Notes under the pieces: model-generated
The model's input: the letters and a program-made list of their open reading frames with translations, nothing else
Told to the model about the DNA's origin: nothing
The model's database searches: none
Assembly: GCA_023213315.1 (NCBI GenBank)
Contig: JAKCPI010002924.1
Location: forward strand, 79,754-143,753
Reading direction: 5' to 3'
Length of the DNA: 64,000 nt
DNA from: Euborellia annulipes
Taxonomy: Eukaryota; Arthropoda; Insecta; Dermaptera; Anisolabididae
Program-made: the position numbers and the translations under genes
Part shown: positions 2,727-58,100 of the stretch, piece by piece
Position numbering within the stretch: position 1 is the first letter of the stretch
How the letters are laid out: every line of letters starts with the position of its first letter

Positions 2727-2976
2727 TAGAATGATAGAAAGGAAGAGAGGATGTCAGCCAAAAGGAGAGCCTCTATCGAATAAAAATCTCCATTCAGAAG
2801 ACGTTTCGGTTTTAATTAAATAAATCCATCATCTCACTGGTGTACACCTTGAGATTGACAATAATCTCTGATGATGGATTTATTTAATTAAAACCGAAAC
2901 GTCTTCTGAATGGAGATTTTTATTCGATAGAGGCTCTCCTTTTGGCTGACATCCTCTCTTCCTGTCTATCATTCTA
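2727..2976. mobile_element. Inverted hammerhead-type element, family a
   Basis: Two ~105-bp arms are near-perfect inverted copies. The plus arm holds CTGATGA (2868-2874) and GAAACGTC (2896-2903) with GG/CC closing stem II. The minus arm has the equivalent core mutated to GAGATGA. Interior about 35 bp. Confidence 0.75.
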
Positions 2977-2988
2977 AAATAACTTGTA

Positions 2989-3310
2989 ATTCAGTGTTTT
3001 CCAAACTGGGAGCCGCGGACTAGGGAGCAGGGCTGCACCTATGAAAACTTGCGCCCGGGGCCAAAAAAAATTTTTTCTTAAATATTTATTCAACATTAAC
3101 TCTGCTTATCGCACCTCTGGACTAATTCCAACCCCCCCCCCTAATGACAAAAAAAAAATATTTAATATTATTTTTAGAAAAGATTGTTATTTTTTGTCAA
3201 TGCCGGCGCCCCGGGGCTGGTGCCCCCTCGGCCCCGCCCTTGTTGCGGCACTGAAGGGGAGGCGCCGAATATTAGCCCCACCCTCCACCCCTTCTTGAAT
3301 GCGTTTAGGG
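2989..3310. repeat. Degenerate hAT-like GC-rich patch
   Basis: Begins CAGTGTTTTCCAAACTGG, a hAT-type terminus, and contains poly-C plus GGCGCCCCGGGGC stretches. The other end was not identified. The short open frame inside is low-complexity and not a gene. Confidence 0.4.
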
Positions 3311-3761
3311 CCCACTTGCTACACTTTCTTCTTTTTTTGTGATAGCGTCTGCTTTGAAATTTACAGCTTTCAAAATAAATATTTAATTTTAAAACTTTAA
3401 TTCTTCTCTAACAATCTCCTCATTTCTGCTTATTCTTTCAATTAATGAGATCGGTTAGATAAGCAACAACAAAAAAAAAAAAACAACAAATACTACGATC
3501 GCCTTAAAATAAAGTCAAATGAACTTTTAGAAAATTCATTTTTATTTTTTTCACGGGGTTAAATAATTATAAAAAAAAAAAGATGGTTTGTCGTCTTCAG
3601 TGACTTTCAACGATCGATACAATGCCGTTAAAAAAAAAATAAAGTTTCATTATTGGCGCAATAACGCTCTCAAATATTAAGACACGCTGGTTATGGAAAG
3701 AATTTCATAAAAATCGGCAATGCATGTGTGTAAATCGAATTTTTGTTTTTTTTTTCCCTCT

Positions 3762-4004
3762 TCAAAATTTTGTATCCACTATAATCTCATCGCCATTTCG
3801 GATATTATAGCTGTAAAGTTGTTTGCTTGGGAATTTCATCTCTTCTGGTCCATGAATGCCTTTCATATCTTGGTCCATGTAAAATAAACGCATTTTTGAT
3901 GGCGCAATGTTAAGTATCGGCTCGAGACGTTGTTTCAGGTCTTGTACGGTTTGATACACCAACATACTCCGCACCTCGATCAGGTCACCAAACGTGAATT
4001 TCAC
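3762..4004 (-). CDS. TBCEL: TBCEL last coding exon (ubiquitin-like domain)
   Basis: Follows GTTTAG in phase 0 and encodes about 80 residues ending IIVDTKF then TGA. The fold is ubiquitin-like, with a QTVQDLKQRLEPIL helix and the GPEEMKFPSKQLYSYNIRNGDEI ending typical of TBCEL. The stop at 3762-3764 is followed by an A-rich 3' region. An AATAAA on the minus strand near 3542-3547 is one possible polyadenylation signal. Confidence 0.95.
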   Translation of the reverse strand: MKFTFGDLIEVRSMLVYQTVQDLKQRLEPILNIAPSKMRLFYMDQDMKGIHGPEEMKFPSKQLYSYNIRNGDEIIVDTKF

Positions 4005-7000: not shown

Positions 7001-10000
7001 TTGAACTCGAAGACATTTCAAAGCTGGAAATCGGCCCAATCGATCAATCTCGTCCCATGTTGATAATTGTGTGTTGTTCAGATTAAGGAACTCCAAGAAA
7101 CGAAAACATTGGTGAGGGGTTGCTATATTCGAGCCACTAGCTTCACTTTCCGATTCAGATCGATTGTATCTTACACTTTCACCTGTAAGATAAACAAATT
7201 TTTGGAAATGGTAAATTATTTTTGGAAGGCTTATTCTTTATAATCCGTGTTTTCTTTTTCTACATTATCTTTTTTTTAGATAAAAAATCATAGATTTCGT
7301 CCATATTTATCTAAATATAAGTTAAATAAATTTTAATCGCTTTTTTCGGGCTGATCTTTAGAACAGGAAGCGAGAACTCCACCTCTATCCTAAGCGTCAG
7401 AGCTCAAAGAAACATTTATTATATAAAATATTTCATTGCTATTAATTACCTTTTGCGTCATTTTCGGTAGGTGAAGTCTCTTCCGAGACATCCAGGGAGG
7501 CGATCGGACATTGAGCCAGAACAAGAGCTTCTAATCTCGGGAACGCTTTGCCAAGTTTGGTCACCTCTCGCCATTCTCGGATGGGATTGCCGGTGAAATG
7601 GAGTTTCTTCACTGAAGGACAAGTGCAATCTGTATTGGATCCAGGTGCGTTGTTTTCTTTCTCATGAAGACTTGTTTCAGAAGGTGTCAATTCAACAGTA
7701 GAATATTCATTTAGGCTTAAGTGTAACTCTTCCAAGCTAAAAAAAAAAAAAATTATGGATCGGTAAAAAATGTTATTAAATTTTCATGAATTACAATAAA
7801 TAGGCAAAAAGAAAAAAGAATGAGTGAAACTATTTATTTATAAAATTCAATTTAATCAAAATTAACATAGTTGAATCTTAAAAATTAAAACCTTATTTTA
7901 TATAAGGAGAAATAATGCCTCTTTTAGCCTCCCCTGAGGATAAATTATTATTTTCTTTAGAAAACGCAATTTATACCTGTGATGTTATTCATGAAGTTAG
8001 AAAAATAAGAGACGCAGCTAGTTTTTTTGATTTATTTATTTAATCCACACAGCTGACGTTTCGATCCCGTGTTTGAACCATCTTCAGAACTGGCGAAAAG
8101 TCATTATGAAAGTGTCCCAGTGGAATTTATACATTGTTGAATCAAAAAACCAAACACTTATATATTAATTATATACACAGTATGCGACCAGGTACAGTGA
8201 GGGACAATATTAAGTCCCACCCATGCGTTTTCTACTTGTGATTATTTCATTGTTTTTAAAAAAATATTATATATTTTTTAATGGAAACTTTCATGGTTCT
8301 GAAAATTTCCAATAAAGATTTTCATTTTCTTTTATAAAAACAATGAAATAATCACAAGTAGAAAACGCATGGGTGGGACTTAATATTGTCCCTCACTGTA
8401 CATAAAAAAATTTTTAAATTTTTATTTTTTTATCTACCTGATCAACGCATACTGTGTATATATTTTTTATATATATATTTGGATGTTTGGTTCAACAATG
8501 TACAAAATCCACTGTGGCACTTTCATAATGACTTTTCGCCAGCTTTGAAGATAGTTCAAACACGGAACCGAAACGTCAGCTCTGGGGATTAAATAAATAA
8601 ATAAAAAAACTTTACAAAGAAAATTTTCAAAAATAAGAACTAAAATGCAAATAAGAAAAAAATTATTTTCTTTTCGGGGCGATATGTCACAGGAACTCTA
8701 ATCTGGATTCAGGTTTTATTTTTAGAGGTCGTCGATTTTGCTGTAAGTAGTTCGTCGCAATCGTCGCATTTCAAATGCAAATGTCCTCTTTTTCGATCTT
8801 TCTGATTGTCCACGTAAAGAAAGTCAAGTAAAGAAACGTTGAATTTGGGTCATCTTTGTTAATTTTCGGACTTCCCTCTAAATCCTTCTTTAGTTGTTGA
8901 CTTTGCCAATTGGATTCTCCTCGAAATGTTTCTGAATTTCAATATAATTATAGATATATTGAAATTTTTCTTAGTCTTGAGGGCGACTTCCTCTCAGATC
9001 ATTTGTTGGTGTTTTAACTTGCACTTATAAATGGAGGATTAATTCTTTTTGATCCCTTTTTTAGAATACTTCTCCTTTCTTTAACTAACTCTACTTTTTT
9101 ATACCTTTCACAGAGTAAAAAGATAAGAATATACACTCGAATAATAAATAAATCATATAATCAAGGAAACTCAAAAGACATATCACTAAAAGCATAGATT
9201 TAAATATTTTTTTTTTCTCTTTTTTTTATATTACAAATGATTCATTCATTCTTTCGGCCACGCATAAAGATTGAAAGTACTTTGGTATAAAACTAAGATT
9301 TATGTAATCATTGTTTATCTGCTGCTTTCTATTAAATTGTTTAAAATTGTTGGTTCAGAGGAAAGCTTACTCGTAATGAGTTCCGTATTTCCGAGATTAT
9401 AATTACGAAAGAAATAATTAATTTACATTTTTATATCATTTAATTGGGTTGGTTATTAAGAAAATAATGAATGAATGAAGATGAAATTTTTAAGTAGATT
9501 TAATACAAATACAAATAATTTAAATCAATTTAATAAAACATTGTCAAAAATGTCGATTTTCAATTTGAGGGACAAATATCCACATTTTTGTCTTTGTTTT
9601 ATTCAAATTGTATTAAATTGATATGGATTTGTGTTAAATTTGCATAGAAATGTATAAGATATTTCATAGTAGCTTTGAGATAGATTAGAATAAGCCTTTT
9701 TAAGAGGACACAAAGGGTTACGTTTTTTTTTTTTTTGACGCGCAGTATATATGATATAATTCTATTTTTTATCCAAAACTAATAGAGAAAGTGACAACAA
9801 AACTATTTATTTTCAATTGGATTAAAATAAATTGTAGTACGGTTAAGGGTGGGTGATTCCGACCCAACCAAAACGTGAAAAGTCCACGGCTGAGTGACCT
9901 CAAGAGGTATTTTAAATAAAAATAAAAAGAAGAATGGTCTCCCAGGTGAGATTACCTTGACAACTTGCCGACCACACACTCAATGTCGTAATCATTGGTC

Positions 10001-13000
10001 AAGTTGCGTGCCAATAAAAAAGTGCAATTTCTGATTCCGCTAGTGGATTTCATTTATAATAATATTATTAGTTAGAGTTGGATCAAAGGATCTCTCGTTG
10101 TTCCCGGAGCTTAGACCAAGGACTTTTGTGCCTTATAAGTCGCAAAAGAGAACCTTGAGTTAAGTTAAGCGCTTGCTTTGTCCAGGCATATTTTTATTTT
10201 GACTTAACACGCATTCCAATGTTTGTAAGGCCAGGATTTATTTTTATTTATAATTTTTAATTTAGATCAAGTACAATTTTATTTAAAAATTCTATTCTTT
10301 TCTGCAATGTTGCTAAGGGGAAAAATCTCTTGTGTCTTATCCAATGTTGGAAGAAAATAATTTGGCATTTAGGGCTTTGAGGTGATCATTAAAAATTATC
10401 TTTTAGAAAACTCATTGACATTTGTTAGTAAAGCAAAGCGAGACTTTTATTCCATTTTATAAATGCATCATCTGAATTTTTTGTTTAAGATCTTTTTCGT
10501 CATCAGAGGCCATTTAGACCTTAGAATTTAATTGGAATAAATTGGGAGGGGACCCCTAGCACAACAAGAGGCGCACCATCAGCGAGTTGCAAGTGGCTTA
10601 TTATTCAACATTTTTTTCTCGATTTCGAGATACACTCAATCGTTTTTACAATATTTGGGCCTTCAATCCAAGTTTTTAGGGAAGCGAAGGTCAAGCTTTG
10701 TTTACAAGTTTTTCATATTTATATCAAACCAAATGAATATTCTTGTCAACAATACAATGTCAGGTTATTTTTATTATCTCGATCTGAAAGATTTTTTGTT
10801 TCGTCCTGTTTGCTGGGGATGAGATTATCTCCTACTTTACTACCCCAAGAACCAGGTCGAAGAGTTTGCAGCTTATAGGCTAAAGTCTATTTGCCGCCCC
10901 CTCTCTAGTTCATATTTCCTTAATACATTTGTTTTATACGATAAATGAATAATAAAATTCATAAGAATAATATTATTAACTTCTTCATTTTCTTTTGAAA
11001 AAATTTTCAAAATTTTTGTCGCTCTTGGCTGCAGCCTTTTTTTTAGACTATTTAGAAATATGGTCCTCCATTTTCTTGATTAGTATCTTTAAACTTACGC
11101 CAATTCTCTTCAATATTAATTTTATTAAATTTTTGAACATTTTTTCAGAAGACCTACTGGGAATACATCTTTCGTCTTTTTTTCATAGACCCACGCTTTA
11201 TAATTGCTAATTTTGATTAAAAACTTTTGCTTAAAGTTTTCCAGCTTCCATGATAATGAACTTTAAAGAATAAAATAACAAATAAAATGCCCGGCGAGGC
11301 TGGCAAGAAGAGAGAATCAAGTTCGTTATAATCAAGTAGCGTTTAGAGGCCCCAGAACAAACAGACTATTTATTGAACGCCGATAAATGCTTTTTTTCTT
11401 CGATACTTGAAATATATTACTAGCCATCGCTGCAGAAAAGACTCAATATATTAATAAATAAAAAAAAAGAGAAATGATTCGATTAAATAAAAAAAAATCT
11501 GTTGTGAAACACACACACAACTTTTTTATCCTGATTTCAATTGAGTTTCCTTTTTTCTTTTTGTTAATTTTTCGATCAAAAATTTAATAAATATTTCTAT
11601 TTTATGGCTTCAAAGTGAGATTTTCAACTCATTTCTCAATTAATTAATAAAAGTAAAAGTTTTTGATACCTTGATATATATTAATAAAATATATCATTTG
11701 TGATTAAGGAACAATAAAAAGAGTCTAGAAGAAATTTATTAAAGATAGAAAGGTTAAACGGCGACTGCATTAAAGTTCAAGTTTATTTATTTATTTTTTT
11801 TTAAATTTGCATAGTCCTCTTACCTTGGCAATTGTCGTATTAGCCTCCTGACACTGGGCCAATCGATTCTGCATCCGTTCAGGACCAAATTCTTTAGATA
11901 AGGATAGTGCAGAGACGAGGGCCTTTTGCTTCGTTCCATCGTCTCATCCAACCGGTTGAAACTCAAATTGACGAACTTTACGCGGGGCATGTGTTTCAAA
12001 ATATCGAAGATCTGAAATTTATTAATATTATTATCATTTATTACGAAATATTATTCCTTGTTTGAAATGTATTATTACTTTTTATATAACTTAACGCTTT
12101 AATGAATTGAGTTAATTTATTTCAAAATAACTCAACTTGAAATATGTTAATGAAAAAAAAAAAATAATTTCTTAGTGAACAATAATTATTTCATCTGGGA
12201 TTTATCTCGATGCGGAGACGCATCTGGAGGATGGAGCAAATTAAAAAAAATCCAAGAATTAGGAAAGAGGCGCAAAATTAGCTTGAGGGAAAAATATATA
12301 ATTTTCACCAGACTTTAATGACGTATTTTGGGCAAAATGGTAAATTGGACAAAAATATTTATTTTTTTATTTTATTTAAGGTTTTTTTCAGCATCTAAGG
12401 CCATATCGTCGCCTGAATCACGTAGTGGCGTATCTCACTTTCTATCATTTTTCAGGAGAGCTTTTTATAGTTCGTGTTGTTATATTAAATGTATAGATAC
12501 GCAAAACCAAAAAACCTAAATAATACGAAAAAACATGGAAATACAGATTCGTCACTTTGTGATAATGTAAAGAAAGCCAGGACACGGCCATACCCGTTAT
12601 ATCTCAATTTTTAATTTTTTTGAGATACGTCACTACGTGATGCAAGCGACGATATAGACCCCATCCCTATTTATTTCAAGTGATTTGTAATCAAATCAAA
12701 TAAATTTTTCTCGCTTGGGACTCCGGCGCGAGAAGCTTATGTCTTCTCTCTGAGCCACGGGTCACCGGCAAGGTAGAAGATAAAACAACGTTTCACCCAT
12801 CTTCAGGACAAAGGTATTAAAAGATTTTAGCACTGCCTCCTTCAGGTGTTAGATAAGTAAGAATGTTAGTCCAAAATATACTAAACATTCTTACTTCTCT
12901 AACAACTGAAGGAGGCAGTGCTAAGGATTTTTTAACACCGAAACGTCGACAAGGGAAAATAAGTCTTTCTTTTTGTTTCATCTTCTCTCTTCCTCCACAT

Positions 13001-15980
13001 TGTCTTTTATAATGATTTATATAAGATCCAAAAATAATTTATTGTTAGATACAACACTTATGATTTTGTTATCTTTTCGAATTTATTTTGTGGCCTATGG
13101 TAGCTATTTTGTTTAAATAAATTTATTAATTATATTTTCCTTAATTTTTTTATCTACAGGAGGATGAGGTGGAAGAGAGCAAAGCTTTGAATTCGAGGCA
13201 ACACTCAGATGCATCGGCGATCTTGTTTCTCCAACTTTAATTTGTGTTTGAGCGAAAACCAAATCTACTTTCTGAGGCCACCATTCTCGTCGGAATTGTT
13301 CCTTGAGGTAATGTTTTCTAATTTAATTCATGACTCTTTGTTTCTATTTATTGGTATATTTCTTTTCTTTTAATCGTTGATTGTCTGGGCTGGATGTTGA
13401 GATTTAGTATCCAAATGGCTTAAATAAAATCATCAGACTGCCTGGGGTCCGAACCCGCGACTTTTGAGACCTTATGAGGCTAGCACATTAACCCCTACAC
13501 CAAGCCCGAGGGCTATTTTGTAGTTATTGACATTAAAGTTTAAAAATTTTGATGCAATTCTAAATTTTAGATAGAAAATAAGATCAATATATTCCACTAA
13601 AAATTGTATATATACTAAAGGAAATAACATTGTTTCATAGGCAGGATTACATTCTGAAAAACTCTACGCCATTTATTTTTAAATTAAAAGAAGCTGATGA
13701 AATTATTTAACTTGTCCAAGGGATATATGGGGGAGATTTCGCCATGGGCGTAATTGAATATCGTGAGCGATTAGATTAGCCAACGGCAGGGCAGAACAGC
13801 GATTGCCATTTGCCATTTGCACAATGGCAGTGGCAGGCAGGCGCGCACTTTCTCTGCATTCAACTGACCAATATATCAAACGAAAGTGATTTAAAAAAGA
13901 GCCTTGTCTTTGTTATAAGAATGAATGACATCCTAATCTCGTCACCTCCTCCAATTAAGGTGGGAGATAATTTCAAAATGTATTATTAATAAATCGTTTG
14001 CAAATTATAACCTTTGTTTATTATTTAATTACATTTGTAGTTAGGCCAACAGACAAAGGAATATTTTAATAGGATAATCTTTAAGAATATTTATCACAAA
14101 GTGTATTTAAGAATGAGGGTAAAATGGAAACTTAAAACAGACAACATATAACCATAAAGACTGTTTGATTTTTATATTTCATCTTACAGACAGACGACTT
14201 TGATTAAATTATAGTAATAATTTGAATGCGCTCTTTGATCTATCTAAATGAACTTTATCTAATGAAAGAAAGTTATTTTCAACTTTCTTTTCAATAAATT
14301 AATATTTTAGAGATCATTCATCCTTAAAAATAAATATATCACTTTGACTCTTAAGTACTGGCTCAACGAATGGAAGGCCAAAATTGTCTCAAAATACTCG
14401 CTATACAGCGTAGCTCGATTTATCTCAAAAGAGAATGTTTTGCTGGCGCGATTCAAGGGGGAATGAGCTATCTCTTCCCAGGCTAGAAATGAGACATAAA
14501 TTCAGTCTTTCGTCTCATGATAGGAGAGAGGGGATTAAAGGGGGGGGCGGTGGGGGCGACCCGAGAAGAAATTAAAAAGTTATAAAAACTAGTAATTATG
14601 ATTTCCGCTCTTTAATTTCAATTGAATTTGTTACCAATCAATTTAAATAAATAGGAAAGGGGTCTAAATGACCATAGATGCCGACAAAGTCCTTAAATAA
14701 AAAAAACCCCCCCCCGACAAAATGATTAATCCCCCCTAGATAGGAGTTTTTCGAGGGGGGAGATAATATGGTGTGACTGGCGGCACTGCACACAACTTTC
14801 TCTTTCGGTAATTTAAAGTTGCATTCTGTACTACTACTCTGTATACAAATCAAATTTTTAAGTATTCATTTTTAAAATTTTATATTAAAAATAAAATTTA
14901 ATATAAAATAATGGAGTGGAATCAGCCAAGGAGAGAAGGAAATTTTTCTGTCGACGTTTCGAGCGCCAGTCACGCTCTTCCTCGGGACAGTCTAGTGTCA
15001 ATTCTTACAGATTGTACAAGTTTCCATGCATTCGTATACACATGCCTGTTAAAAATCATTGTTTAAATCATAAAATGAACACACTTTACATTGTTAATGT
15101 TAATTGAAGTTCATTTGTTGATTTCAAATGATAGTAAAAATTACTACAATCTGTAAGACACTGCCCTGAGGAAGAGCGTGATTGGCGCTCGAAATGTCGA
15201 CAGAAAAATTGTTTTTTTTTTTAATTCTTTCCCTTGCTGGCTCCACACTTCATTATTTTATTTAATAAGCACAGTCTAGTGACTACAGAAAAAATTTTAA
15301 TTCTCAAGAAAAATACTGTATTTTTCTTAAATCTCCGGGGGGGGGGGGGGGTAATTGCCGCCCTTAACTCGAACAATCAATCGCAGTATCTTTTTTCTAT
15401 CAAATCTTTCTGAAGTTTCCTATATTTCAACCAATTCGTGAACGTTTAGGAGAAAAAGTAGAGGACTAGCTAACATTTGAGAAAGCGTTTATTTAAGTGA
15501 ATTTACATGTTGGGTTTGTTAAGACTTAGGCTAATAAGTGATTTCCTCTTATTTTAAAATAGAAAATAATCCGCCACTGTTTTAAATAATAATAAAAGCA
15601 TCGAATTTTTGCTTTGACATGGATTATTTTTAACCAGAGCTGATGTTATTTTTAAAAACAAAAAAAATTAGGTCATGGGTTAATAATAAAAATACCTCCT
15701 TCCATCTGGTGAGTTTGTTCTGGGCTAGGTCGAGTTCTTCAACGCCCTGACATTTATCGGCAAGAATCATCTCATCGCCGGCGGCGTCGATATCGCAGTC
15801 ATTTAAGACTAAAAGCGAAGGGATGCAATTGCGTGGGTTCTTCTTGGGCACGTAGATGGCAATTGGAAGACCGGAAGCAGATTCAGGTGATGGGGGTGGC
15901 GTGTCAGGTGTCAGGCCACAGCACCCGCAGGACCCACCCTCGCCGTACTTGGACTCGAGGGCTTCTAAAAGGGACGGCAT
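3762..15980 (-). CDS. TBCEL: Tubulin-folding cofactor E-like protein (TBCEL), multi-exon gene
   Basis: Exons in coding order: 15696-15980, 11824-12011, 7450-7736, 6983-7182, optional microexon 5876-5914, 5339-5578, 3762-4004. All junctions are GT-AG. The phases join cleanly: a Ser codon is split between exons 2 and 3 and a Gly codon between 3 and 4. The product is 480 residues, or 493 with the microexon. It shows leucine-rich repeats (for example LLVLND, LDLAQNKL, VNLSFNRL, FLNLNNTQL), an LRR cap region (ERRQLLIARLP, ERAFIRYY) and a C-terminal ubiquitin-like domain ending in the GPEEMK...GDEIIV pattern. It has no CAP-Gly domain, which separates TBCEL from TBCE. By family knowledge TBCEL binds and destabilises tubulin heterodimers in the cytoplasm; the Drosophila orthologue acts in sperm individualisation. 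Introns are full of repeats. The transcription start was not found. Confidence 0.94.
4568..4648. repeat. Solo ~80-bp hairpin in the last TBCEL intron
   Basis: AAATCTGGTGTGACAAGCAC pairs with GTGCGATCAGTCACAGCAGATTT. The body of the larger unit is absent, so the hairpin can exist on its own. Confidence 0.65.
4917..5181 (+). other. GC-rich exon-like segment between TBCEL exons
   Basis: An acceptor-like tract (CATTTTCCTTCAACAG) is followed by about 260 bases of about 48% GC in otherwise AT-rich DNA. Two plus frames stay open: one ends AFIADNEAD at 5158, the other runs to a TAA near 5181. Neither resembles a family I know. It sits in the intron before the last TBCEL exon, on the other strand, and could be a last exon of the plus-strand transcript. 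Confidence 0.3.
5339..5578 (-). CDS. TBCEL: TBCEL coding exon (LRR cap and linker)
   Basis: Eighty codons from EYTEHERRQLLIARLP to LSPEKRVK, phase 0 at both ends. The acceptor is TTTTAAG|GAG and the donor AAG|GTAAGTT. It contains the most conserved TBCEL block: ERRQLLIARLPNV, LNGGGEITNEERE, AERAFIRYY, and GKLDPLVNVDL leading into the ubiquitin-like domain. Confidence 0.95.
5726..5798 (-). tRNA. tRNA-Phe (GAA)
   Basis: A complete 73-base cloverleaf. The acceptor stem GCCGAAA/TTTCGGC pairs fully. The D arm has GCTC...GAGC, the anticodon arm TTAGA-CTGAAGA-TCTAA gives anticodon GAA, and the T arm is CCTGG-TTCGATC-CCGGG. A box TAGCTCAGTTGG and B box GGTTCGATCC are canonical. It is followed on its own strand by a T run (the A run at 5703-5724), the Pol III terminator. 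CCA is not encoded. The gene lies inside a TBCEL intron in the same orientation and shows no SINE tail. Confidence 0.95.
5876..5914 (-). CDS. TBCEL: Possible TBCEL 39-base microexon
   Basis: A 13-codon phase-0/phase-0 segment (GSKEPRLKKRMIP) with a good acceptor (TATTACAG|GG) and an acceptable donor (CCG|GTACGA). Because both phases are 0 it can be included or skipped without a frameshift. Family members join the flanking exons directly, so it would be a basic lineage-specific insertion or an alternative exon. It may also be chance. Confidence 0.4.
6656..6761 (+). other. Plus-strand exon-like segment antisense to TBCEL
   Basis: A classic acceptor (TTCTTTTAATTGCAG) and donor (AATCCAAG|GTGTGTATT) flank about 106 bases. 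All frames carry stops, so if transcribed it is noncoding or decayed. It is listed because it shares canonical splice borders with the other plus-strand segments. Confidence 0.22.
6983..7182 (-). CDS. TBCEL: TBCEL coding exon 4 (LRR)
   Basis: Begins after ATCTTACAG, completes the Gly codon, and runs 66 residues from ESVRYNRSESE to GCPLFE. The donor is GAG|GTAAAAT. Motifs are LEFLNLNNTQLSTWDEIDRL and LKCLRVQGCPL, matching the family pattern of an LRR followed by W-E/D-I-D-L. The exon starts with a Ser/Glu-rich loop. Confidence 0.92.
7450..7736 (-). CDS. TBCEL: TBCEL coding exon 3 (LRRs)
   Basis: The first base completes the split Ser codon. The exon then reads LEELHLSLNEYSTVEL, continues through VKKLHFTGNPIREW and LEALVLAQC, and ends at ENDAK plus one base of a Gly codon. 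The acceptor is a long T-tract followed by AG; the donor is AAAAG|GTAATT. The LEEL.L.LN.Y.TV segment is the strongest similarity to animal TBCEL. An insert around NNAPGSNTDCTC lengthens the loop between LRRs. Confidence 0.94.
8020..8600. mobile_element. Inverted hammerhead-type element, family b
   Basis: Minus core 8055-8087 (CTGAAGA ... GAAACGTC) and plus core 8545-8577 (TTGAAGA ... GAAACGTC), with stem II GGTTC/GAACC in the family consensus. The intact MITE 8191-8401 sits inside. A second member lies at 26190-26450. Confidence 0.72.
8191..8401. mobile_element. Intact TA-flanked MITE with ~60-bp inverted repeats
   Basis: Ends CAGTGAGGGACAATATTAAG and its complement, with arms of over 60 bp nearly perfect and TA on both sides, as in Tc1/mariner MITEs. 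It is inserted inside the hammerhead-type inverted element at 8020-8600. Confidence 0.85.
8601..11823. other. TBCEL intron 2 without further genes
   Basis: AT-rich intronic DNA. Apart from the MITE piece at 9440-9755 I see no RNA gene or convincing exon. A slightly GC-richer patch at 9840-10180 has no open frame. Confidence 0.5.
9440..9755. mobile_element. Partial copy of the CGTAACATTTTG MITE
   Basis: Shares AAAATGTCGATTTTCAATTTG, TTTTTGTCTTTGTTTTATT and the GGTTACGTTTT...GACGCGCAGTAT end with 16398-17186. The left terminus is decayed. Confidence 0.6.
11824..12011 (-). CDS. TBCEL: TBCEL coding exon 2 (LRRs)
   Basis: Too broken up by flanking stops to appear as a long ORF, but found by its acceptor (AATTTCAG|ATC) and donor (CCAAG|GTAAGAG). 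It encodes 62 residues from IFDILKHMPRVKF to IRQLP, plus two bases of a Ser codon completed by exon 3. It holds two LRR cores, VKFVNLSFNRL and LKNLVLNGCRI. Exon 1 enters in phase 0. Confidence 0.92.
12655..12780 (-). mobile_element. Second tRNA-derived SINE family
   Basis: On the minus strand GTGGCTCAGAGAGAAGAC can serve as an A box and GCCGGAGTCCC as a B box, followed by AAGCGAGAAAAATTTATTTG. The same TTCTCGCTTGGGA piece recurs at 16088-16108. Flanking arms at 12397-12440 and 12620-12665 are inverted copies of ATATCGTCG...ACGTAGTG. Confidence 0.5.
12781..12965. mobile_element. Inverted element with decayed hammerhead, family c
   Basis: Arms GCACTGCCTCCTTCAG / CTGAAGGAGGCAGTGC are inverted. 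The plus side ends ACACCGAAACGTCGAC, the minus side has CTGAAGATGGGTG but has lost part of stem II. Confidence 0.6.
13161..13312 (+). other. Plus-strand exon-like segment inside TBCEL intron 1
   Basis: Bounded by TTTATCTACAG and CCTTGAG|GTAATG. GC content is raised. The only frame open to the donor begins after a TGA and can start at an ATG (MHRRSCF...) and end FSSELFLE. It does not resemble TBCEL and lies antisense to it. Function unknown. Confidence 0.3.
13404..13513 (-). mobile_element. tRNA-derived SINE fragment (same family)
   Basis: Head half in reverse: GGGGTCCGAACCCGC (B box) and CCTACACCAAGCCCGAGGGC (A box side), with ATCCAAATGGCTTAAAT. The tail is absent. The tRNA-like look is from the SINE; it does not fold as a functional tRNA. 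Confidence 0.75.
13730..13910. other. GC-richer patch in TBCEL intron 1
   Basis: GCCATTTGCCATTTGCAC, GGCAGTGGCAGGCAGG and GCGCGCACTTTCTC stand out from AT-rich flanks. No long open frame. Possibly regulatory. Confidence 0.25.
14705..14893. mobile_element. Fragment of the CAAGGGCGGAT hAT family
   Basis: Poly-C tracts and GGTGTGACTGGCGGC are followed by the AAATTTTATATTAAAAAT body seen at 28200-28265. Both termini are missing or masked. Confidence 0.55.
14930..15225. mobile_element. Inverted hammerhead-type element, family d
   Basis: Minus site 14948-14990: stem I CTGTC/GACAG (5 bp), core CCGAGGA, stem II GAGCG/CGCTC (5 bp), GAAACGTC. Plus site 15161-15203: core CTGAGGA intact, stem II GAGCG/CGCTC, GAAATGTC. 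Flanked outward by inverted ATTTTT and CTTGGCTG-like arms. Confidence 0.8.
15696..15980 (-). CDS. TBCEL: TBCEL coding exon 1 (N-terminus, first LRR)
   Basis: Encodes 95 residues from MPSLLEALESKYGE to LTRWKE. The ATG at 15980 was chosen because it lines up with the short N-terminus of the family just before the conserved SKYGE-like segment. A good splice acceptor (TTTTGTTGCAG) lies 15 bases upstream, after 15996. The ATG is therefore probably in the second exon, behind a noncoding first exon not identified here. The donor is GAG|GTATTT in phase 0. Residues 20-35 are a Pro/Ser-rich linker. The exon is clearly GC-richer than its surroundings. Confidence 0.9.
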
Positions 15981-20304: not shown

Positions 20305-20519
20305 TTGAGAAAGTGACCGACCGCCTTTTTATTTTGCAAATCAAAAATGGAAACTATTAATTATGACATGCAAAAATTATCATCACTACAAAAGACATCA
20401 TGATTAGCCAACCCAAAGAATCATTCCTGTTTAAAATATCGAATAATTAATGAATGATTCATTAAAAAAAAAAGAACAAAAAGTAAAATTTAATAGCGAT
20501 GAGAAATGGCTGTAGATTT

Positions 20520-20905
20520 TGAATTGGAGATAGGAGACGTAGCAGCCAAGGAATTAAATAAAAGACTTTTATTTAATTAATTGTCGACGTTTCGGTTGCA
20601 AATCACGGCCTTCCTTAGGACAATTAATTGTCAAAATACAAGATATACAGTATTATTCTTAATTATTGTTGCAAATTATAGCAATCTATATTTAATGACT
20701 AGCCTACTTATCTATTATGAGTGACTTGCTCGCTTAGGGCTTCTTACAATCAATCATCATTTAATATAGATTGTATAATTTGCAACGACAATACTGTACA
20801 TCTTGTAATTTGACAATTAATTGTCCTGATTTGCGACCGAAACGTCGACAATTAATTAAATAAAAGTCTTTTATTTAATTCCTTGGCTGCAACGTTTCCT
20901 ATCTC
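20520..20905. mobile_element. Inverted hammerhead-type element, family e
   Basis: Minus site 20575-20629: stem I AATTAATTGTC/GACAATTAATT (over 10 bp), core CTAAGGA, stem II GG/CC, GAAACGTC. The plus copy keeps ATTGTC-CTGA and CGACCGAAACGTCGAC but has lost the middle. Outer arms GGAGATAGGA / TCCTATCTCC close the element. Confidence 0.75.
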
Positions 20906-21950
20906 CAGTAAAATTTAATTTGCTCAATGTTAGTGAGTCATAAGGAATAAGAGTTGAAAAAATTCGTTTCAAGTTAAAACTTGCGAGCGGACAGAAGAAC
21001 ATTGATTTATAAAATGAATATATCATAAGTTTGATTGAATCTATGTTCGTTTTATTTTTTTATTTCTATAAAAAAAGGTCAAAGTTGAAGTATGCATCGA
21101 TGTCAAAAAATCCAATTAACTTCAACTTGTAGAGATTTCACTTATTATTCAATTAACTAAGAAAGTCCTCCATGAAATGGTGGCATTTTTTATTTTCTGA
21201 CATTTTATAACGAATTGATTAGCCTTGGACTTCATTTTCTATATAAATTAAAGAAAATTGACAAGATTAATTTCAATTAGAGGTACTTGTTAGCAATTTC
21301 TTTCGAAACCATCAATTAATTTTTCACTTTCATATACACCTAAATTGTTTCTTTTGGTGATTTTGTGCAATTTTTTTAGGTTTTTGGAAAGCGAAAAGTT
21401 ATAACTCAAAAACTTTGCTATTTTTATAGTAATTTTATCCTAGAAAATATTAACTGACCTTATTCTTTTAATTACCAAACCATTTATTAAAATTTTAATG
21501 CGAATTTTAAATGGGATTTTGGCCAAATTTAAGAAATGAAAGCCTATAATAATAATCAAACTAGATGATGAAGATGGACAGGAAATGAATTTTTTATTTA
21601 GAATGTTGCCCAAGAGAAAGCCTTGTCGAGGTATTATATTTAAAGTTTCAACTGTTTGCTCTAGTTGAAACATTATCTAAATTAAAAACACTTGGCTAAT
21701 TGTTTCAAATTTATTTATTGATTATCAATCGAGAAATCACTTCTGAGGATGACACAGTGTTGATTTATATAATGAATAAATAATTTGAAACAAATAACCG
21801 AGTGTTTTTATATGTATGTAATTTAATTAAATTCATAATAAAATCTATATGTAAAATTGCGGAGTGTCCGTTTGTCACGCTCTGACGAATCTCACGTTCA
21901 AATTTCGTTATGGAGAGGCCAGGAAAATTTGAATCCACCTTTTAATGACT

Positions 21951-21991
21951 AGCTCTGAGGATGGTGCGAACCCTGGACCGAGATGTCAGCT
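21951..21991 (+). ncRNA. Decayed hammerhead-like site
   Basis: Stem I AGCT/AGCT, core CTGAGGA, stem II GGT/ACC, but GAGA in place of the invariant GAAA, then TGTC. Probably inactive. Confidence 0.4.
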
Positions 21992-22296
21992 GAATTAGAT
22001 TAAATAATCAAATGAAAAAACAAAAGCTGCTGCATTTCTCATTTTCATCCTTAGCCTAATTTGATATTTAAAAATCATCATTTGAACTTTGAAATGTTTT
22101 TAATAAAAAAAAAAGAAGAAGTTATGCAATAATATCAAGATTAGCATTTCTTTTGTTGCTGGATGCACTTTCAAGTTAGATATCAATTTGAATCATGATT
22201 TCAGAATAATTTCTTTAAAATTGGAAATTTTCTCATATTTTTCGAAAGATTTATCTTTTTATGACATTTTATGCAATTTATTTATCTTAATTACAG

Positions 22297-26189: not shown

Positions 26190-26450
26190 TATTTTATTTG
26201 CACAGCTGACGTTTCGGTTTTATGAACTCTGAAGATTGTTCCAACATAGAACCGAAACGTCAGAAGTACACATAAAATAATCAAGAGTTCAATTGCTGTT
26301 GACTTTACAAGAAGAAAAAGAGAAAGTACAGGAGCAAAGAAAAAAGTCACAACTCTCCTGATTAGGCCCTAATTTATTTTATTTGTACTGCTGACGTTTC
26401 GGTTCTATGTTTGAACCATCTTCAGAGTTCATGGTCCTACCCTCTAATAA
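26190..26450. mobile_element. Inverted hammerhead-type element, family b, second copy
   Basis: Minus core 26393-26425 is intact: CTGAAGA, stem II GGTTC/GAACC, GAAACGTC. Plus core 26229-26261 has CTGAAGA and GAAACGTC with one stem II change. A partial arm with GACGTTTCGG lies at 26207-26218. Confidence 0.75.
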
Positions 26451-27573: not shown

Positions 27574-27609
27574 CTGAGGATGGAGGAATACACTTTTGTC
27601 CGAAATGTC
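27574..27609 (+). ncRNA. Isolated hammerhead-like core
   Basis: CTGAGGA (27574-27580), stem II closed by GGA/TCC, then GAAATGTC (27602-27609). AGGA before and TCTT after can pair as stem I. Embedded in an AT-rich repeat; no inverted partner found. Confidence 0.45.
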
Positions 27610-28290: not shown

Positions 28291-28742
28291 AAAGTGTGTG
28301 CGTTAAAAAAAAAACCCTGTTCTTGTTTGAGACACAGTCATGAAAAAGTTACAAAGATAAAGTAAAAATCAAATGACCTTATCCAATTCAATCTGGCATT
28401 TTTACTTTCCATCGACTTTCAATTATATCCGAGTGAGAATTCAATCAGAAAAATATTATGTAACTTTGAATAACGCTAATAATAATGGCAATAAAGTATT
28501 GAACTATTATATAGTCTACAAAACGCCAAAAAATAAACTTTTTTGCCAACTTGCAACGAACACTCAACTTTCTATCGAGGAATAATTTTTATTTAATTTG
28601 TCTCTTAGATGAACAAAAAATGCAACTAAATGACATCGCACAATTTGCTCTCAAAAGAAAATGTTTTTCTCTCAACTTTTAGCTTTTTTCTTGGACAAGG
28701 AGAATTTTATTACAAATTTGAGTTTAATAAAATGAAGATATT

Positions 28743-29435
28743 CACAAGGAAGGAAGCAGGTGCAGCCAAAATTAAAGCCTCCGATTTTGTTACAATTAAT
28801 GAGACGTTTCGAGAAAACTTTATTTCCTCATCATCAGTCAGGGGTTTTTCGAAATGTTGTGAAATATTCATTTGATTCTCTGCCATACTCTTGGCCCGAT
28901 CTCACATATTCAAAGGGGTTTTTATAAGGGAATTTTTGAGGGAAATATACATTTTGTTTTTAAAAAATTTTTAAAATTTTTATATGTCTATGTAAATTTG
29001 TCTTTATTGATTTGATGAAAAGCTTTCTTCTTTCAATATTTCGTTTTAATTTAAATAGCATTGACCAGATTTTAAGATTAAATTTTTAATTATAGAAATA
29101 TTTTAAGAAATGTTGAAAGAAATATATTTATAATCGAGACGCTTTTACAATTTTTAACATTCTCACTGAACAAGTCAATGAATAACACACCCATAAAGAA
29201 AATACATAATAAATGTATTGTGCCCTTTTAACAACTCCGGGACAAATACAATTTGTAAGTGTTATCTTATATTGTTAAAAAAATTTTTCTATCTATTATA
29301 TATTAATGTGTTATATTATGTATTTCTTGTGTAGGAAAGACTGATGATGAGGAAATAAAGTTTTCTCGAAACGTCTCATTAATTGTAACAAAATTGGAGG
29401 CTTTAATTTTGGCTGCACCTGCTTCCTTCCTTGTG
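28743..29435. mobile_element. Inverted hammerhead-type element, family f, both cores intact
   Basis: Arms 28743-28840 and 29338-29435 are inverted copies. Minus core 28803-28837 and plus core 29341-29375 both read CTGATGA, stem II GAGGAAA/TTTTCTC, GAAACGTC. TCA after the cleavage-site C can pair with TGA before the core on the minus copy. About 500 bp of AT-rich interior. ORF at 28630 crosses the arm and is not a gene. Confidence 0.85.
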
Positions 29436-30329
29436 CATAAATCAACAGCCACGTACTTCATTGGTTAAAGAAGATATTATCAATGGTGAGATTGAAATGA
29501 AAAACTTTCTTGCGGTATTTCAACCATCAATCAAATTTTCTCATCTATTTATTTTGATTTTACGAGAGCTCGTAAATTAAATAAAAGTCTTACATAATCT
29601 TATCATAATATTAAACAGAAGAGGAGAGGAGAGTCTCTCTTTAAGTCGGGATAAAATGCAATATATAAAAGCAGGTCACTACGGGTCCTGCGGTGGCTTA
29701 AAATAGGGATAGCAATCCAGTGAGATATTCTAAAATGATGTAATGTCTGTAAAAACGACGCATTTAAGCAAGAGTGAGATGGACAGGGTTGGCCTTTTGC
29801 CAGGCCCCCATTTCATTTGAATTGTACCATTGTGCTTGCGTTTGTGTTTATTTATTTATTGTAAATAAATAATCGATTATTTTGATCATTGCCAAGGCTT
29901 CGCCTTGCCTGGATGACCCAGACAGACTCTCTGAGAAATTCAGGCTAAAACTTGAAAGTTATAAACGCCTCGCATCTCTGATAGAATAGAATAAATATTT
30001 ATAAAAAATTACCACAACAACAAGTAATATTTTGAAGGACAAATTCAAAGTAGCTGACAAAAGATGAAATTTAAATTAAATTCTCCTTTTTTTTGGCTGT
30101 AGATGCCTGTAAAATTTTAAATTATAATACAGATAGCATTATCTTGAGCAACGATCTTGGTGGCTGTTGCGCTTCACTCTTGCCAGCCCCCCCCCCCCCC
30201 GCCTTCGAAATACCTTTTATAATATCATAGGCGTAGCCACAAGGGGGCGGGGGCGGTTCAACCATAGAAAATATTTCTGAGTCCTCTGAATATTCATTTG
30301 CTATGAAATACAGTTTCCTACAATTAATA

Positions 30330-31629: not shown

Positions 31630-32095
31630 ATAGGAAATAAAATAAAAAGAGAAATGTTTTCGACCCCGATTTATTTTATTTTCTCTTGTCGATGTTTCGG
31701 TGACTAAACGTCACCCATCTTCAGGACCGATCTTGTTGGTAGCTGCACTCGATGTTATTCGCAGAAACGCAGGATAATTTATAAACGTTGTAGTCAGCAT
31801 TGTTTTTGATGATATTTGGATTTACTTCTACCTGATTATTGCTCACTACAACGTTTATACATTATCCTGCGTTTCTGCCAGTACCAACAAGTCCTGAAGA
31901 TGGATGATTTAGTCACCGAAAAGTCGAAAAGGGAAAATAAAATAATTCTGGCTACGCTAATGTTTATATATTATCCTGCGTTTCTGTCAGTACCATCGAG
32001 TGCAGCTACCAACAAGATCGGTCCTGAAGATGGGTGAAGTTTAGTCACCGAAAAGTCGAAAAGGGAAAATAAAATAATTCTGGCCTCTTTATTTC
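31630..32095. mobile_element. Inverted hammerhead-type element, family g, with a duplicated arm
   Basis: Minus core 31691-31724 (CTGAAGA, stem II GGTGAC/GTCACC, GAAACATC). Two direct plus cores, 31894-31925 and 32024-32057 (CTGAAGA, TCACC, GAAAAGTC). Stem I GTC/GAC is retained. AACGTTTATACATTATCCTG-type spacers repeat between them. Confidence 0.75.
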
Positions 32096-34167: not shown

Positions 34168-34200
34168 TGGGGGGGGGGGGTTCCCCCCCCCCTTTTTTCG
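34111..34200. repeat. Long A tract with G and C runs
   Basis: About 40 consecutive A near 34125-34163, then G(12) and C(9). The lysine-rich and phenylalanine-rich frames here are artefacts. Confidence 0.8.
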
Positions 34201-41668: not shown

Positions 41669-41769
41669 CTGTAACAACAAAAAACAAATTAGCATTAATC
41701 TAGGCAAATCAATGATTTTGATTTTCTTTTTTTCGTTTATAGATTATACTATAAAAAAAAAAAAATTCG

Positions 41770-42872
41770 ATTGGCTTGTATTATTATCAAGGAGATGAGG
41801 TGCAGGTGGAACATTAAGAGGATGACGAAGATGAGGGGGATGTGGGGGATGTCACCGCGGGTGGTTGTTTTCCAGGTTCCTAGGTACCAATTTGAAATAG
41901 GCGATGACTGACTCCAATTTCGCCTCGTCCATGTTGCCTCAGCTGTGAATAAAGAAAATATTAATAAATATTAATATTCCTAACGTCCTACATAACAGTT
42001 AATTAATTTTTCCTGTAATTTATTTCTTTTATTATGGAGAAGGTTGTTTTAAATTGAATTTTATACGGTATTAATAATTGTGTTATACTGGTATAAAATA
42101 TAAATATAATGATGCAAGTATTTATCACCTGTTTTGTTTGGGACGGAGCTGTTTCGTTGGGACCTGACGAAGATCGGATGTTAAATGGCTTTGTTCATGC
42201 TGTTAGAGTCCACTTCTGTAAAAGAATATAGAAATAAACATTAGTTTTTGATAGGCAATTTTGATATTGCATGAGATTCACTAAAAAATCTTTAATGTTT
42301 TCTAGCTGACGTTTTGAGAGCTGGTCGCACTTTTCTTCATGTCAAACAAAATGTCCTATGTTACAGTAGGCTACTGTGTATTTTTTTCATGGGCTTATTG
42401 ATTTGAGATATGTGCAATAACAACAACAAACTTCAGCTGCAATTTTTATTATTTTTCATCTGGCTGCTCTTAATCTCCTCTCTACTCATTATACGTTCAG
42501 CCATTTCTCCTAAATTTAATCATTTTTAATTAAATTAAAAACACGCGGTTATATGTTTATTAGTATAGATATATTTCGAAACTTAGCGTGTCATCCTCTG
42601 CAGTAATAAACATACTTTTTCGTAAATACAAGTAGAATGCAAATGTTTATTACCTGTTCCTTGATGTTGGATTTTTTCGGGGATGGTGATAGAAAAATGG
42701 AGGACTTCCCGCGATGTGCATATGATGGAATGGGATCCATTTCCTGCCTCCGGTCAAACCCAAGAAGCTCAAAAATTGCCTTGGATTTACTCAGATGTTT
42801 TTGAGCTTCTTGGTAGGATCCCATGATCCTTTCCACCCGAATGGACATCTCATCCCTTATTTTTGTAGACTC
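41770..42872 (-). pseudogene. Tandem gene family, copy B
   Basis: Exon 1 at 42654-42872 is open for 73 codons and differs from copy A by substitutions and one missing codon. Exon 2 at 42129-42215 is shortened and has a TGA where copy A has a Tyr codon. Exon 3 starts at 41942 with the conserved ATG (MDEAKLESVIAYFKL) but meets TGA after about 27 codons and loses the Ser-rich tail. The splice sites remain intact. Probably a decayed copy. Confidence 0.55.
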
Positions 42873-48714: not shown

Positions 48715-48790
48715 TTAAAAATTATTTAAATTATTTTGGTCGACGTTTCGGACTCCAATCACGTCCTTCTTCGGCACCAAAGGTTGTTAA
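48715..48790 (-). mobile_element. Solo hammerhead-type arm, family h
   Basis: Core 48742-48774: CCGAAGA, stem II GGAC/GTCC, GAAACGTC. Stem I TTGGT/ACCAA pairs 5 bp after one mismatch. No inverted partner is seen. Confidence 0.65.
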
Positions 48791-53630: not shown

Positions 53631-53639
53631 TTCTTATAA

Positions 53640-55280: not shown

Positions 55281-55284
55281 CTGA

Positions 55285-55645
55285 ATAAATAAATCCGGAG
55301 CTGATGTTCAGGCAATTTATTCGGATTAATTCCCTCCGCTATAGGTCAACGTTTCGGGGTTCAAATGGCTCCTTCTTCAGGACCATGCGGTGTTGAGAAA
55401 ACAATTAATCCTCAATCAAACGAAGAATGATGAGGATGATCATTCTTCGTTCGTGACCATTTGCCACTTGTCTTGTAGCGAAAGTAACCACAACATTTAA
55501 GACAATTGAGGGCTAATTGTTTTCTCAACACCGCATGGTCCTGAAGAAGGAGCCGTTTGGGCCCCGAAACGTTGACCTACAGCGGAGGGAATTAATCCGA
55601 ATAAATTGCCTGAACATCAGCTCCGAATTTATTTATTTATTCACC
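55285..55645. mobile_element. Inverted hammerhead-type element, family i
   Basis: Minus site 55344-55384 and plus site 55537-55577 share stem I GGTC/GACC, intact CTGAAGA and GAAACGTT (cleavage base U, allowed by the NUH rule), with GG...CC stem II. Arms GGAGCTGATGTTCAGGC / GCCTGAACATCAGCTCC close it. Confidence 0.8.
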
Positions 55646-55754: not shown

Positions 55755-55850
55755 TCTTCTGGGAGATGTAGCAGCAAAGCTTTACTTATTTTTTAAATTG
55801 TTTACGTTTCGGGTGCTAATCACGATCTTCTTCAGGCCAATAATTGCTTA
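55755..55850 (-). mobile_element. Solo hammerhead-type arm, family j
   Basis: Core 55803-55835: CTGAAGA intact, weak stem II, GAAACGTA. Preceded outward by GGGAGATGTAGCAGC, the same outer arm style as family e. Confidence 0.55.
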
Positions 55851-56207: not shown

Positions 56208-56473
56208 CAAGGGCGGATACAAGGGGGGGGTAAAGGGGGTAATTACCCCCCCCGAGATTCGAAAAAAATACCTTTTTTTCGCAAAAAAATTTATTTTTAA
56301 TGTAAAATTTTTAAAATTAATACTTAAAAATTTGATGTGTATTTATATTCTGGCAAACAAGTACAGAATGCGCTTTTAAATTACCGAAATTAAAAAAAAA
56401 TAGTGAGCTGTGCGAAGAGTCACACCAGATTACCCCCCCCCCCCCCCGAGAAACACCTCTGCATCCGCCCTTG
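56208..56473. mobile_element. hAT MITE (CAAGGGCGGAT family), intact
   Basis: Ends CAAGGGCGGAT and ATCCGCCCTTG are inverted repeats. The target duplication GTTCAGAG at 56200-56207 and 56474-56481 is exact. A C run lies at each side. The interior carries half of the GTCACACCAGAT hairpin seen elsewhere, so the two families share sequence. Confidence 0.92.
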
Positions 56474-57106
56474 GTTCAGAGGAAGCTGAGAAAAACGTGG
56501 TTCAAGTTAATAATTTACCGGTCCCTGCGGTCCGATTCACTTCTAACTTTAATAACTTCTTATGCCCTCTTAGGACTAGAAATTTGCCAAACCTCATCCT
56601 AATCAGATTAATAGTTCCAGAGATATAAGCGAAAAAAGCACATCACACACACACACACACACATACATACATACAGTATGAATAGAGAAATTTATTTTGT
56701 AATCCTGAATCCCGTCCTATAGAAAAAAGGCCAACCTAATTTCATTTATTAAATAAATAAATAAATAAGAAAGTCTCCTGCGATGTTGTGATCCAGTAAA
56801 TGAATATTGCATTCTACTTCCGCACACATTCTTGAAATCTTCCAATTAATGGATAACTATGTACGGTGGAAACACAAAAAGATGTGCTTAGCTTTCACCT
56901 TTAACTTGATTTGTTTTAAGGTTGCAATTAAAATTAGTCATAGATAATCATAATAAATAAATATTAAATAGAATAATATACCCTTGATTTTGGAAATTTT
57001 GAAAGGAAGGTCTCTGACGAAAAGGACGAATTTTTTCGTTTTTGTTTTATTAGTCTCAAAACACTTTCCCAGCCATGGACCCAGTTGGAGTTTTCAATAT
57101 CATTGC

Positions 57107-57500
57107 CCAAATTATTATTATTATTCCTATCGGAATCCCCGTTTATTTACCCGAGGTGCTTTCGTGCACGGAGACACACACACTCCTCAAACCCAACCGG
57201 CCTCTGGCCGTAGCCATCTACCGGCACCCCGTGAAGTTACATTATTTCCTATCTCTAACTCCTCCTCCTGCTTTCTTCCCTTAGCTAGTGAACTAATCTT
57301 AATTTCTGGTTCCACCCGGCTCCTTTTATCCAACCTCTTCTATGCTCCTGAGGATGTCCTAGCTTGAGGAGGGACTCCCTCAGGTCTTTCTCCTTTCGAA
57401 GAATGCATCACTGAGAGGGACGTTCCTTCCACAGGACGGGTCCTCTCTCCTCGTGGAGTTGCCTGGGGGCTATTGTGATGAGATCCAATATTCCAAACAT
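57107..57500 (-). mobile_element. 5'-truncated copy of the composite SINE
   Basis: Reverse-complement match to the body of 1111-1647. Shared blocks include ACCCGAGGTGCTTTCGTG, CCATCTACC, CCCCGTGAAGTTACAT, GAATGCATCACTGAGAGGG and ATTCCAA. The tRNA-like head is missing. Small open frames inside are not genes. Confidence 0.8.
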
Positions 57501-57759
57501 CAGATCCCCTAATTATCAAGATATCGAAGAAGCTTATACTCAATTTCACTAGTAAATCTAATATTTGTCTGATAGTCATTCAAGTTTAGTTTGTTTGTGG
57601 GCCTTTAATTCCACGGGATAAAAATGAAAATAGACAACAAAGTTGCAAAACTTTCCCACTGTACAACAACTCGATTAGGAGAAAGAAAATTTTTCCAACT
57701 TCGTTGTCTGTTATATTATTTCCTGTACTGCTGTGCGTATTAAATATAAATAATGGAAT

Positions 57760-58100
57760 GAAAACAGCCAAGGAAAGAATAAAAAAACAAATTCTTCTGT
57801 CGACGTTTCGAGCGTCAATCACGCTCTTTCTCGAGACATTGTAGTGATTGTAGTATTTGAATAACAATTGACATCAACAAACTAACATTAACAATATAAA
57901 GTTTGTTTATTTTCTGATATAAACAATAAATAACAGGCATGTTTATGAATGCAAGGTAACTTGTACAATCCGTAAGAATTGACATTAGACTGTCCCGAGG
58001 AAGAGCGTGATTGACTCTCGAAACGTCGAAACGGCGACTCTTTCCTTGCTTCGAATTCAGAGGTACCAAAGATTTAAAGTTGCAAAAAGGCGTAGTAGGG
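57760..58100. mobile_element. Inverted hammerhead-type element, family d, second copy
   Basis: Minus core 57802-57834 (TCGAGAA, decayed; stem II GAGCG/CGCTC; GAAACGTC). Plus site 57990-58032: stem I 5' strand CTGTC, core CCGAGGA, stem II GAGCG/CTCTC, GAAACGTC. Arms carry CAGCCAAGGAAAG and CTTTCCTTG. Confidence 0.75.

Follow-up and report, generated by a model that had tools for sequence, protein, structure and literature searches.

Minimal type I hammerheads of Penelope-like elements were reportedly described by Cervera and de la Pena in 2014 and by Lunse et al. in 2017. Here we describe hammerhead-like motifs in a 64,000-nucleotide (nt) stretch of the Euborellia annulipes genome (assembly GCA_023213315.1, contig JAKCPI010002924.1, positions 79,754 to 143,753 of the forward strand; hereafter the window), where they lie in small head-to-head repeat pairs, most likely the solo inverted terminal repeats of Penelope-like elements, an architecture already known. 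In published accounts, minimal hammerheads of this class have a reduced stem III, are dispersed by the thousands in animal genomes and are tied to the pseudo-long terminal repeats (pLTRs) of Penelope elements, all as found here; the reviews describe tandem copies possibly cutting as dimers, whereas copies lying close together here are head-to-head. The retrozymes of metazoans and plants are likewise small, non-coding, hammerhead-bearing retroelements, but they have direct repeats giving circular RNA and, in animals, mostly fuller hammerheads, neither of which is the case here.

Penelope insertions of the rotifer Adineta vaga have inverted pLTRs, duplications of 8-10 base pairs (bp) and a 31-bp tail on one repeat, and self-priming on an antisense template is the origin preferred, though not established, by the authors of that study (PMC3846280). 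Head-to-head terminal repeats, duplications, a one-sided tail and a shorter second arm are common to both systems; the Adineta copies are mostly coding and few, whereas in the window the pairs are solo and carry hammerheads, and the genome has more than 1000 copies of the motif; the rotifer paper does not mention hammerheads (PMC3846280). With PAc, the Poseidon element of Anolis carolinensis, purified protein extends both cut strands, reverse transcription starts internally at two sites, and an optional tail corresponds to the segment between them; hammerhead cleavage is unnecessary for insertion in vitro, no cut ends are seen in the RNA data, and later integration steps are, according to the authors, yet to be validated (PMC11167929). 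A hammerhead near the repeat and AT-rich targets recur in the copies described here, as would two start sites with the tail between them and extension of both strands. The PAc hammerhead overlaps the start codon, whereas that of a coding Penelope family in this genome (P1, see below) lies 3' of the endonuclease, with no ATG there, in the copies examined, and PAc copies are described as tandem, whereas close copies here are head-to-head (PMC11167929).

How Penelope elements integrate, and how a head-to-head arrangement with a one-sided tail arises, is left unsettled by PMC11167929 and by PMC3846280. The more than 1000 small copies make the question countable, as the two start sites, the cut and the junction can all be read from a copy with clear ends, and the same copies test whether inserted RNAs had been cut by the hammerhead. 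We consider it probable that the sites are minimal hammerheads in head-to-head terminal-repeat pairs left by Penelope-like retrotransposons and made by reverse transcriptase (RT) priming at each of the two ends of a staggered break in the DNA.

Hammerhead motifs and covariation of their stems

The core order CTGANGA (at most one mismatch), 13-23 nt and GAAA(C/T)GTC is present at 13 sites in the window, as against a mean of 0.13 and a maximum of 1 in 60 first-order Markov shuffles; when a stem II of at least 3 bp is required there are 9 sites, compared with a shuffled mean of 0.02 (maximum 1). A covariance model built from 52 distinct motifs identifies 22 window sites at E <= 0.036, with the 23rd at E 0.92; these sites are ranked by E-value, the shuffle control belonging to the core-order scan. 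Eight of the 22 come from the training set and 14 from outside it, the latter including site 26383, whose 33-nt motif is identical to a training sequence. Four extra sites with a longer stem II segment (2800-, 2868+, 28803- and 29341+) were recovered by scans only, bringing the total to about 26 hammerhead-like sites, and the figure of about 20 given by a sequence-only reading of this DNA is therefore fair. That reading had also placed the sites in families of inverted repeats, as we confirm. Several window copies are degenerate, with core mismatches. In the genome (903 Mb searched), one motif pattern has 1458 exact copies and its reversed control none.

The core CUGANGA ... GAA with a cleavable NUH is that of the minimal, Penelope-type hammerhead. 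The core order is far above chance, and the hammerhead observation is confirmed. The recommended comparison with Rfam hammerhead models returned no hammerhead family in the window at E <= 10; a genome search with RF00008 gave no match either, and the positive control of the same search was silent too.

Covariation was measured with stem I taken as 4 bp and stem II as 5 bp, using 117 hits, of which 103 had a usable 18-nt segment and 52 remained after identical motifs were removed. Across stems I and II, 90.0% of 468 cells are paired, compared with a shuffled mean of 71.0% and with 18-43% in slid-structure controls. Both sides are changed in 93 cells against 35.8 in shuffles, and the covariation score is 0.594 as opposed to 0.276 (shuffled) and at most 0.12 (slid). 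The covariation proposed from the sequence alone is thus borne out by three of five measures, which lie above every shuffle, but not by the other two (pairs with a both-side change, 7 vs 7.3; further pair types, 19 vs 18.0). Stem II columns are biased in loci L001-L030 because the pattern by which these were fetched fixed GG/CC and C/G. With distinct stems only (25), 86% of cells are paired compared with 63% after shuffling, a value reached by none of 2000 shuffles.

Stem II had been drawn directly after CTGANGA, but the best register begins there at none of the 13 sites and one base later at 11 of them, and the first stem II pair is broken at 2 of the 13. The proposal that stem III is nothing but a self-complementary tetranucleotide holds, this being ACGU, or AUAU in P1; as in minimal hammerheads, these few bases are predicted to be able to pair between copies, and stems I and II carry compensatory changes. 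The alignments support assignment of the sites to a putative minimal type I hammerhead order with covarying stems I and II.

Orientation of neighbouring copies

Neighbours within 1500 nt of each other are divergent in 15 of 16 cases, with one tandem and none convergent, in each of two lists. For each of two exact patterns (with 1458 and 273 matches) the list comprises the first 100 places, and the two lists overlap, at least the pair on C93 being common to both; neighbours in them that are more than 1500 nt apart have mixed orientation. Among loci L001-L030, 18 of 22 neighbours within 400 nt and 19 of 31 within 1200 nt are divergent. Head-to-head repeats are a property of inverted-pLTR Penelope insertions, and are seen in both lists (15 of 16 in each) but not in L031-L060. 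The proportion of tandem neighbours, one among 16 in each list, does not correspond to the direct tandem hammerhead repeats of retrozymes, and the retrozyme-like arrangement raised in the sequence-only reading does not apply. A separate observation concerns L037, L054, L058 and others, which carry a recurring array of three hammerheads (+, ~160 nt, -, ~40-50 nt, +) with two stem types, as one composite repeat.

Two kinds of ends, a one-sided tail and target duplications

Among 42 pairs of mixed families, 15 share at least 9 nt between their flanks, compared with 3.4 expected, and a family-wise test was therefore done with F1, the family with a GGTTC stem II. The F1 scan covered 46 genomic stretches, and ends were called by tail and end motifs (with a tail call rate of 2.9% on background windows), replacing a local-alignment end-caller that bled into AT-rich flanks. 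The counts leave out copies with an arm score below 25 (21 of 88), three more that lie too close to the end of a contig or stretch, L104 (the same place as L035) and the overlapping loci L002, L005, L009, L016, L024 and L029; Element I of the window, which has weak arms, was also excluded from end statistics.

Followed outward from the motif, F1 copies end at one of two places, either after ..ACCCTCTTATTAA (~67-70 nt) or some 30 nt later after ..CAGCTATAAATTGTTTATGCA. The 21 divergent F1 pairs comprise 16 with one short and one long (tailed) end, three short/short, one long/long and one without an end call; the sole long/long pair (L109) resembles, by eye, a false tail call but is kept in the counts. 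One end of each kind is therefore present in 16 of the 20 pairs with both ends called, compared with 9.9 by chance (P 0.0052, with ends taken as independent and a long fraction of 18/40). The counts fit an insertion that is putatively primed twice, once at each site.

In 9 of these 16 pairs the flanks share at least 9 nt, in 8 of them flush with both ends, whereas 10 of 240 mismatched flank pairings share as much and none of 20000 permutations reaches the observed total. The F1 duplications are 9-13 bp long, and most of the duplicated stretches are AT-rich. Both hallmarks of inverted-pLTR Penelope insertions are thus found, the short duplication in 9 of 16 F1 pairs, four of four P1 insertions and window Elements A, D and F, and the ~30-nt tail on one end in 16 of 21 F1 pairs, the P1 pairs and the same three window elements; Elements B, C, H and I of the window have no clear target duplication.

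Short non-coding inverted repeats with target duplications could also be DNA transposon fragments, similar to miniature inverted-repeat transposable elements (MITEs), that contain the motif by chance. This is scarcely credible, as the ends differ by a ~30-nt tail, duplication length and centres vary, the stems covary and the ends recur on copies that code for the endonuclease; the identical termini of terminal-inverted-repeat DNA transposons are not seen, the tail being on one end in 16 of 21 pairs. We rejected both this reading and simple chance, given 13 sites where 0.13 are expected and the tailed end and duplications of F1.

Inner junctions

The junctions between arms vary from motifs that almost touch (L001, with a 3-nt centre) to centres of more than 300 nt, and the template positions reached by the two arms differ in most of the pairs measured. 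Some F1 centres are palindromic (e.g. L035), and several F1 copies align end to end, centre included.

A palindromic centre is compatible with self-priming, in which a complementary DNA (cDNA) or antisense template folds back and copies itself to generate the inverted repeat, and the rotifer head-to-head junctions and junction palindromes were read in this way (PMC3846280). A snap-back should yield a second arm that includes the tail and continues into the flank, whereas in 16 of 21 pairs one arm stops at the short site, and in 8 of 16 the short arm is flush with the duplication. We regard self-priming as unlikely, although its variant on antisense RNA is less clearly ruled out than plain snap-back. 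The copies that align through their centres, together with the L031-L060 arrays that resemble one composite repeat found many times, would instead suit a non-autonomous element in which the whole inverted unit is copied in one piece. F1 centres and truncation points differ, however (3 nt to more than 300 nt), and coding P1 copies have the same ends, such that whole-unit copying is distinctly unlikely. One fixed palindromic unit that is always copied whole was considered as well, and is weakened by the same differences in centres and truncation points.

A coding Penelope family with the same ends

A genome search for GIY-YIG endonucleases gave 118 matches, the best 30 of which were read. The open reading frame (ORF) in L068 defines family P1, in which GIY-YIG scores above the curated cut-off and RVT_1 falls 0.6 bits under it; the protein has 286 relatives, including one from Drosophila virilis (34% identity over 97%), and of 120 relatives listed for a Penelope protein of this genome, those with a named organism are all from insects. 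In 10 of the 30 endonuclease loci the P1 hammerhead shares the strand of the endonuclease and lies 3' of it. L074, L078 and L085 have another hammerhead 3' of the endonuclease (weak in L074 and L085), L073 has one upstream, and in L089 it is on the opposite strand. The P1 core reads GAA-AUAU-(A/C), with AUAU in place of ACGU; as both are self-complementary, the replacement lends mild support to stem III pairing between two copies. Hammerhead-like motifs with GAAATATT are also present on both strands near the GIY-YIG matches of L083 and L084.

Four P1 insertions could be followed to both ends (L070, L073, L075 and L076/L077), and each has one long and one short end and a perfect duplication (11, 11, 12 and 13 bp). 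In three of the four the tailed arm alone is coding, and both arms are coding in L076/L077. The solo inverted pair L020, with a 13-bp duplication, matches the P1 end at 87-89% over 98 nt, and at 93-95% over 59 nt upstream. For the window families, the hammerheads found at endonuclease loci match just in part (L073, for example, at 74% over 81 nt).

The sequence-only reading had assigned the copies to Penelope-like elements while finding no Penelope RT or GIY-YIG domain in the window, and this absence is borne out by searches with 23 endonuclease ORFs as queries, which found no Penelope coding match there at 1e-5. The assignment is direct for P1, given the L020 match and the motif 3' of the endonuclease, and extends to the window families through shared ends and motif only. 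Similarly, the search it had proposed for RT-coding parents joined to such ends succeeded for P1 but yielded none for the window families. As the RT and GIY-YIG ORF is found in genomic P1 and not in the window copies, the latter are at most non-autonomous members. Divergent pairs, two end types, duplications and the same ends on GIY-YIG-coding copies together make solo Penelope terminal-repeat pairs the most likely identity.

Probable priming from both ends of a staggered cut

In the two-ended priming that we favour, one DNA end would prime reverse transcription at the distal RNA site to give the tail, and the other would prime ~30 nt nearer the hammerhead to give the short end. Both cDNAs would pass through the hammerhead toward the RNA 5' end and be linked to each other head to head at points that vary, with both the sequence of steps and the manner of joining presumed. 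The hammerhead would simply be carried along in the template, and would almost never be cut in RNAs that became insertions; cutting would presumably require a transcript with two copies in sense orientation, such as one of tandem Penelope copies. The short end may sit in the loop of a predicted RNA hairpin: 7 of 10 hand-picked arm/tail sets pair in the expected register (6-8 bp) and 3 do not, which is no more than suggestive, and in the putative stem both strands change together from one family to another (AGCUG/CAGCU, GGCUG/CAGCC, UUGCUGAA/UUCAGCAA).

Several points weigh against this origin. In L031-L060, which were fetched by a different stem pattern than L001-L030, neighbours within 1200 nt include 23 divergent, 20 convergent and 13 tandem, and similar spacings recur, as in one composite repeat. 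Five of the 21 F1 pairs are not one-of-each, 7 of the 16 lack a clear duplication, and the general end analysis left out 7 divergent pairs because of weak arms. The searches turned up no coding parent for the families of the window itself. PAc start sites in vitro are alike on both strands (PMC11167929), which on its own does not predict one of each, and the joining step is one that we infer and did not observe.

A broader form of two-ended priming is possible, although we advance it tentatively: every Penelope-type insertion may consist of two target-primed reverse transcriptions, one from each DNA end, obeying a one-of-each rule (the distal site giving the tail, the proximal site lying in an RNA hairpin loop), with solo inverted pairs as the direct record and the hammerhead not cutting inserted RNAs. 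Our coverage of the literature being partial, we do not claim two-ended priming as unpublished, and PMC3846280 and PMC11167929 are the relevant works found.

Cleavage of inserted RNAs

Exact matches show 273 intact F1 arms and 3 whose first base is the one just after the cleavage site; a control position within the motif gives 1. Pattern lengths differ slightly and the ratio is approximate. One of the three (L111) is an internal deletion and another (L112) is consistent with a cut template; the remaining one, on the next-numbered contig, reads identically. The templates of most insertions were thus apparently not cut at the hammerhead, and genomic copies have almost no sign of cutting.

The sequence-only reading had proposed that the motifs work as dimeric ribozymes at these loci. 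Conservation of the core, stems I and II and the self-complementary stem III, with the switch from ACGU to AUAU in P1, would accord with activity. Close neighbours are head-to-head, however, and the transcript of one solo pair therefore holds one sense and one antisense copy, providing no sense-sense dimer; few arms begin at the cleavage site (3 vs 273), and the anole element does not need cleavage for insertion, with no cut ends in its RNA data (PMC11167929). Active dimers at these loci are highly unlikely. A ribozyme dimerizing in cis would not fit a solo head-to-head pair, although tandem Penelope transcripts could give a sense-sense dimer.

Elements and other features of the window

Table 1. 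Hammerhead-bearing elements and single hammerhead-like sites in the window (window coordinates).
Feature	Position	Strand	Description
Element A	2690..2988		Inverted pair; hammerheads 2800-2835 (-, 5' part truncated) and 2868-2903 (+)
Element A arms	2726-2833 / 2870-2977		99% complementary
Element A ends			Left tail 2699-2725; duplication TAACTTGTA at 2690-2698 and 2980-2988
Element B	8023..8609		Family F1 (GGTTC stem II); hammerheads 8055-8087 (-) and 8545-8577 (+); tail on left arm
Inverted repeat	8192-8401		Inside centre of Element B
Weak hammerhead-like site	12895..12956	+	E 0.036; adjoins an inverted repeat
Element C	14941..15240		Hammerheads 14953-14985 (-) and 15166-15198 (+); stem II GAGCG/CGCTC
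Element D	20482..20919		Hammerhead 20586-20618 (-); degenerate one 20820-20846 (+)
Element D ends			Left tail 20495-20524; duplication AGTAAAATTTAAT at 20482-20494 and 20907-20919
Single hammerhead-like site	21945..21997	+	E 3.5e-7
Three hammerheads	26198..26435		26208-26259 (-, truncated), 26229-26261 (+), 26393-26425 (-)
Single hammerhead-like site	27574..27609	+	Scan and covariance model
Element F	28734..29478		Hammerheads 28803-28837 (-) and 29341-29375 (+); stem II GAGGAAA/TTTTCTC; arms 98% complementary
Element F ends			Right tail ~29440-29469; duplication GAAGATATT at 28734-28742 and 29470-29478
Element G	31665..32083		Three decayed sites, 31681-31734 (-), 31884-31935 (+), 32014-32067 (+)
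Single hammerhead-like site	42298..42350	-	E 1.4e-4
Single hammerhead	48742..48774	-	Stem II GGAC/GTCC
Element H	55284..55637		Hammerheads 55348-55380 (-) and 55541-55573 (+); arms 95% complementary
Further site next to Element H	55793-55845	-
Element I	57792..58037		Hammerheads 57802-57834 (-) and 57995-58027 (+); weak arms

The inverted repeat in the centre of Element B contains GTCCCACCCATGCGTTTTCTACTTGTGATTATTTCATTG and is also present alone at 987-1681; it looks like a separate MITE-type insertion. A 193-amino-acid open frame at 53052-53633 (-) presumably corresponds to the end of a LINE reverse transcriptase, which it resembles. Two similar low-complexity open frames (acidic or serine-rich, depending on the strand) are located at 40093-43811, with a GC skew of +0.23 over 40001-44000, and a long A-run followed by a G-run / C-run palindrome at 34116-34205 attracts chance Rfam hits. 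An Rfam search also identified a transfer RNA gene at 5726-5798 (-; 69.8 bits). Two identical U1 small nuclear RNA genes (46169-46331 and 48144-48306) lie 2 kb apart on one strand, and their exact identity reaches 61 nt upstream and 8 nt downstream.

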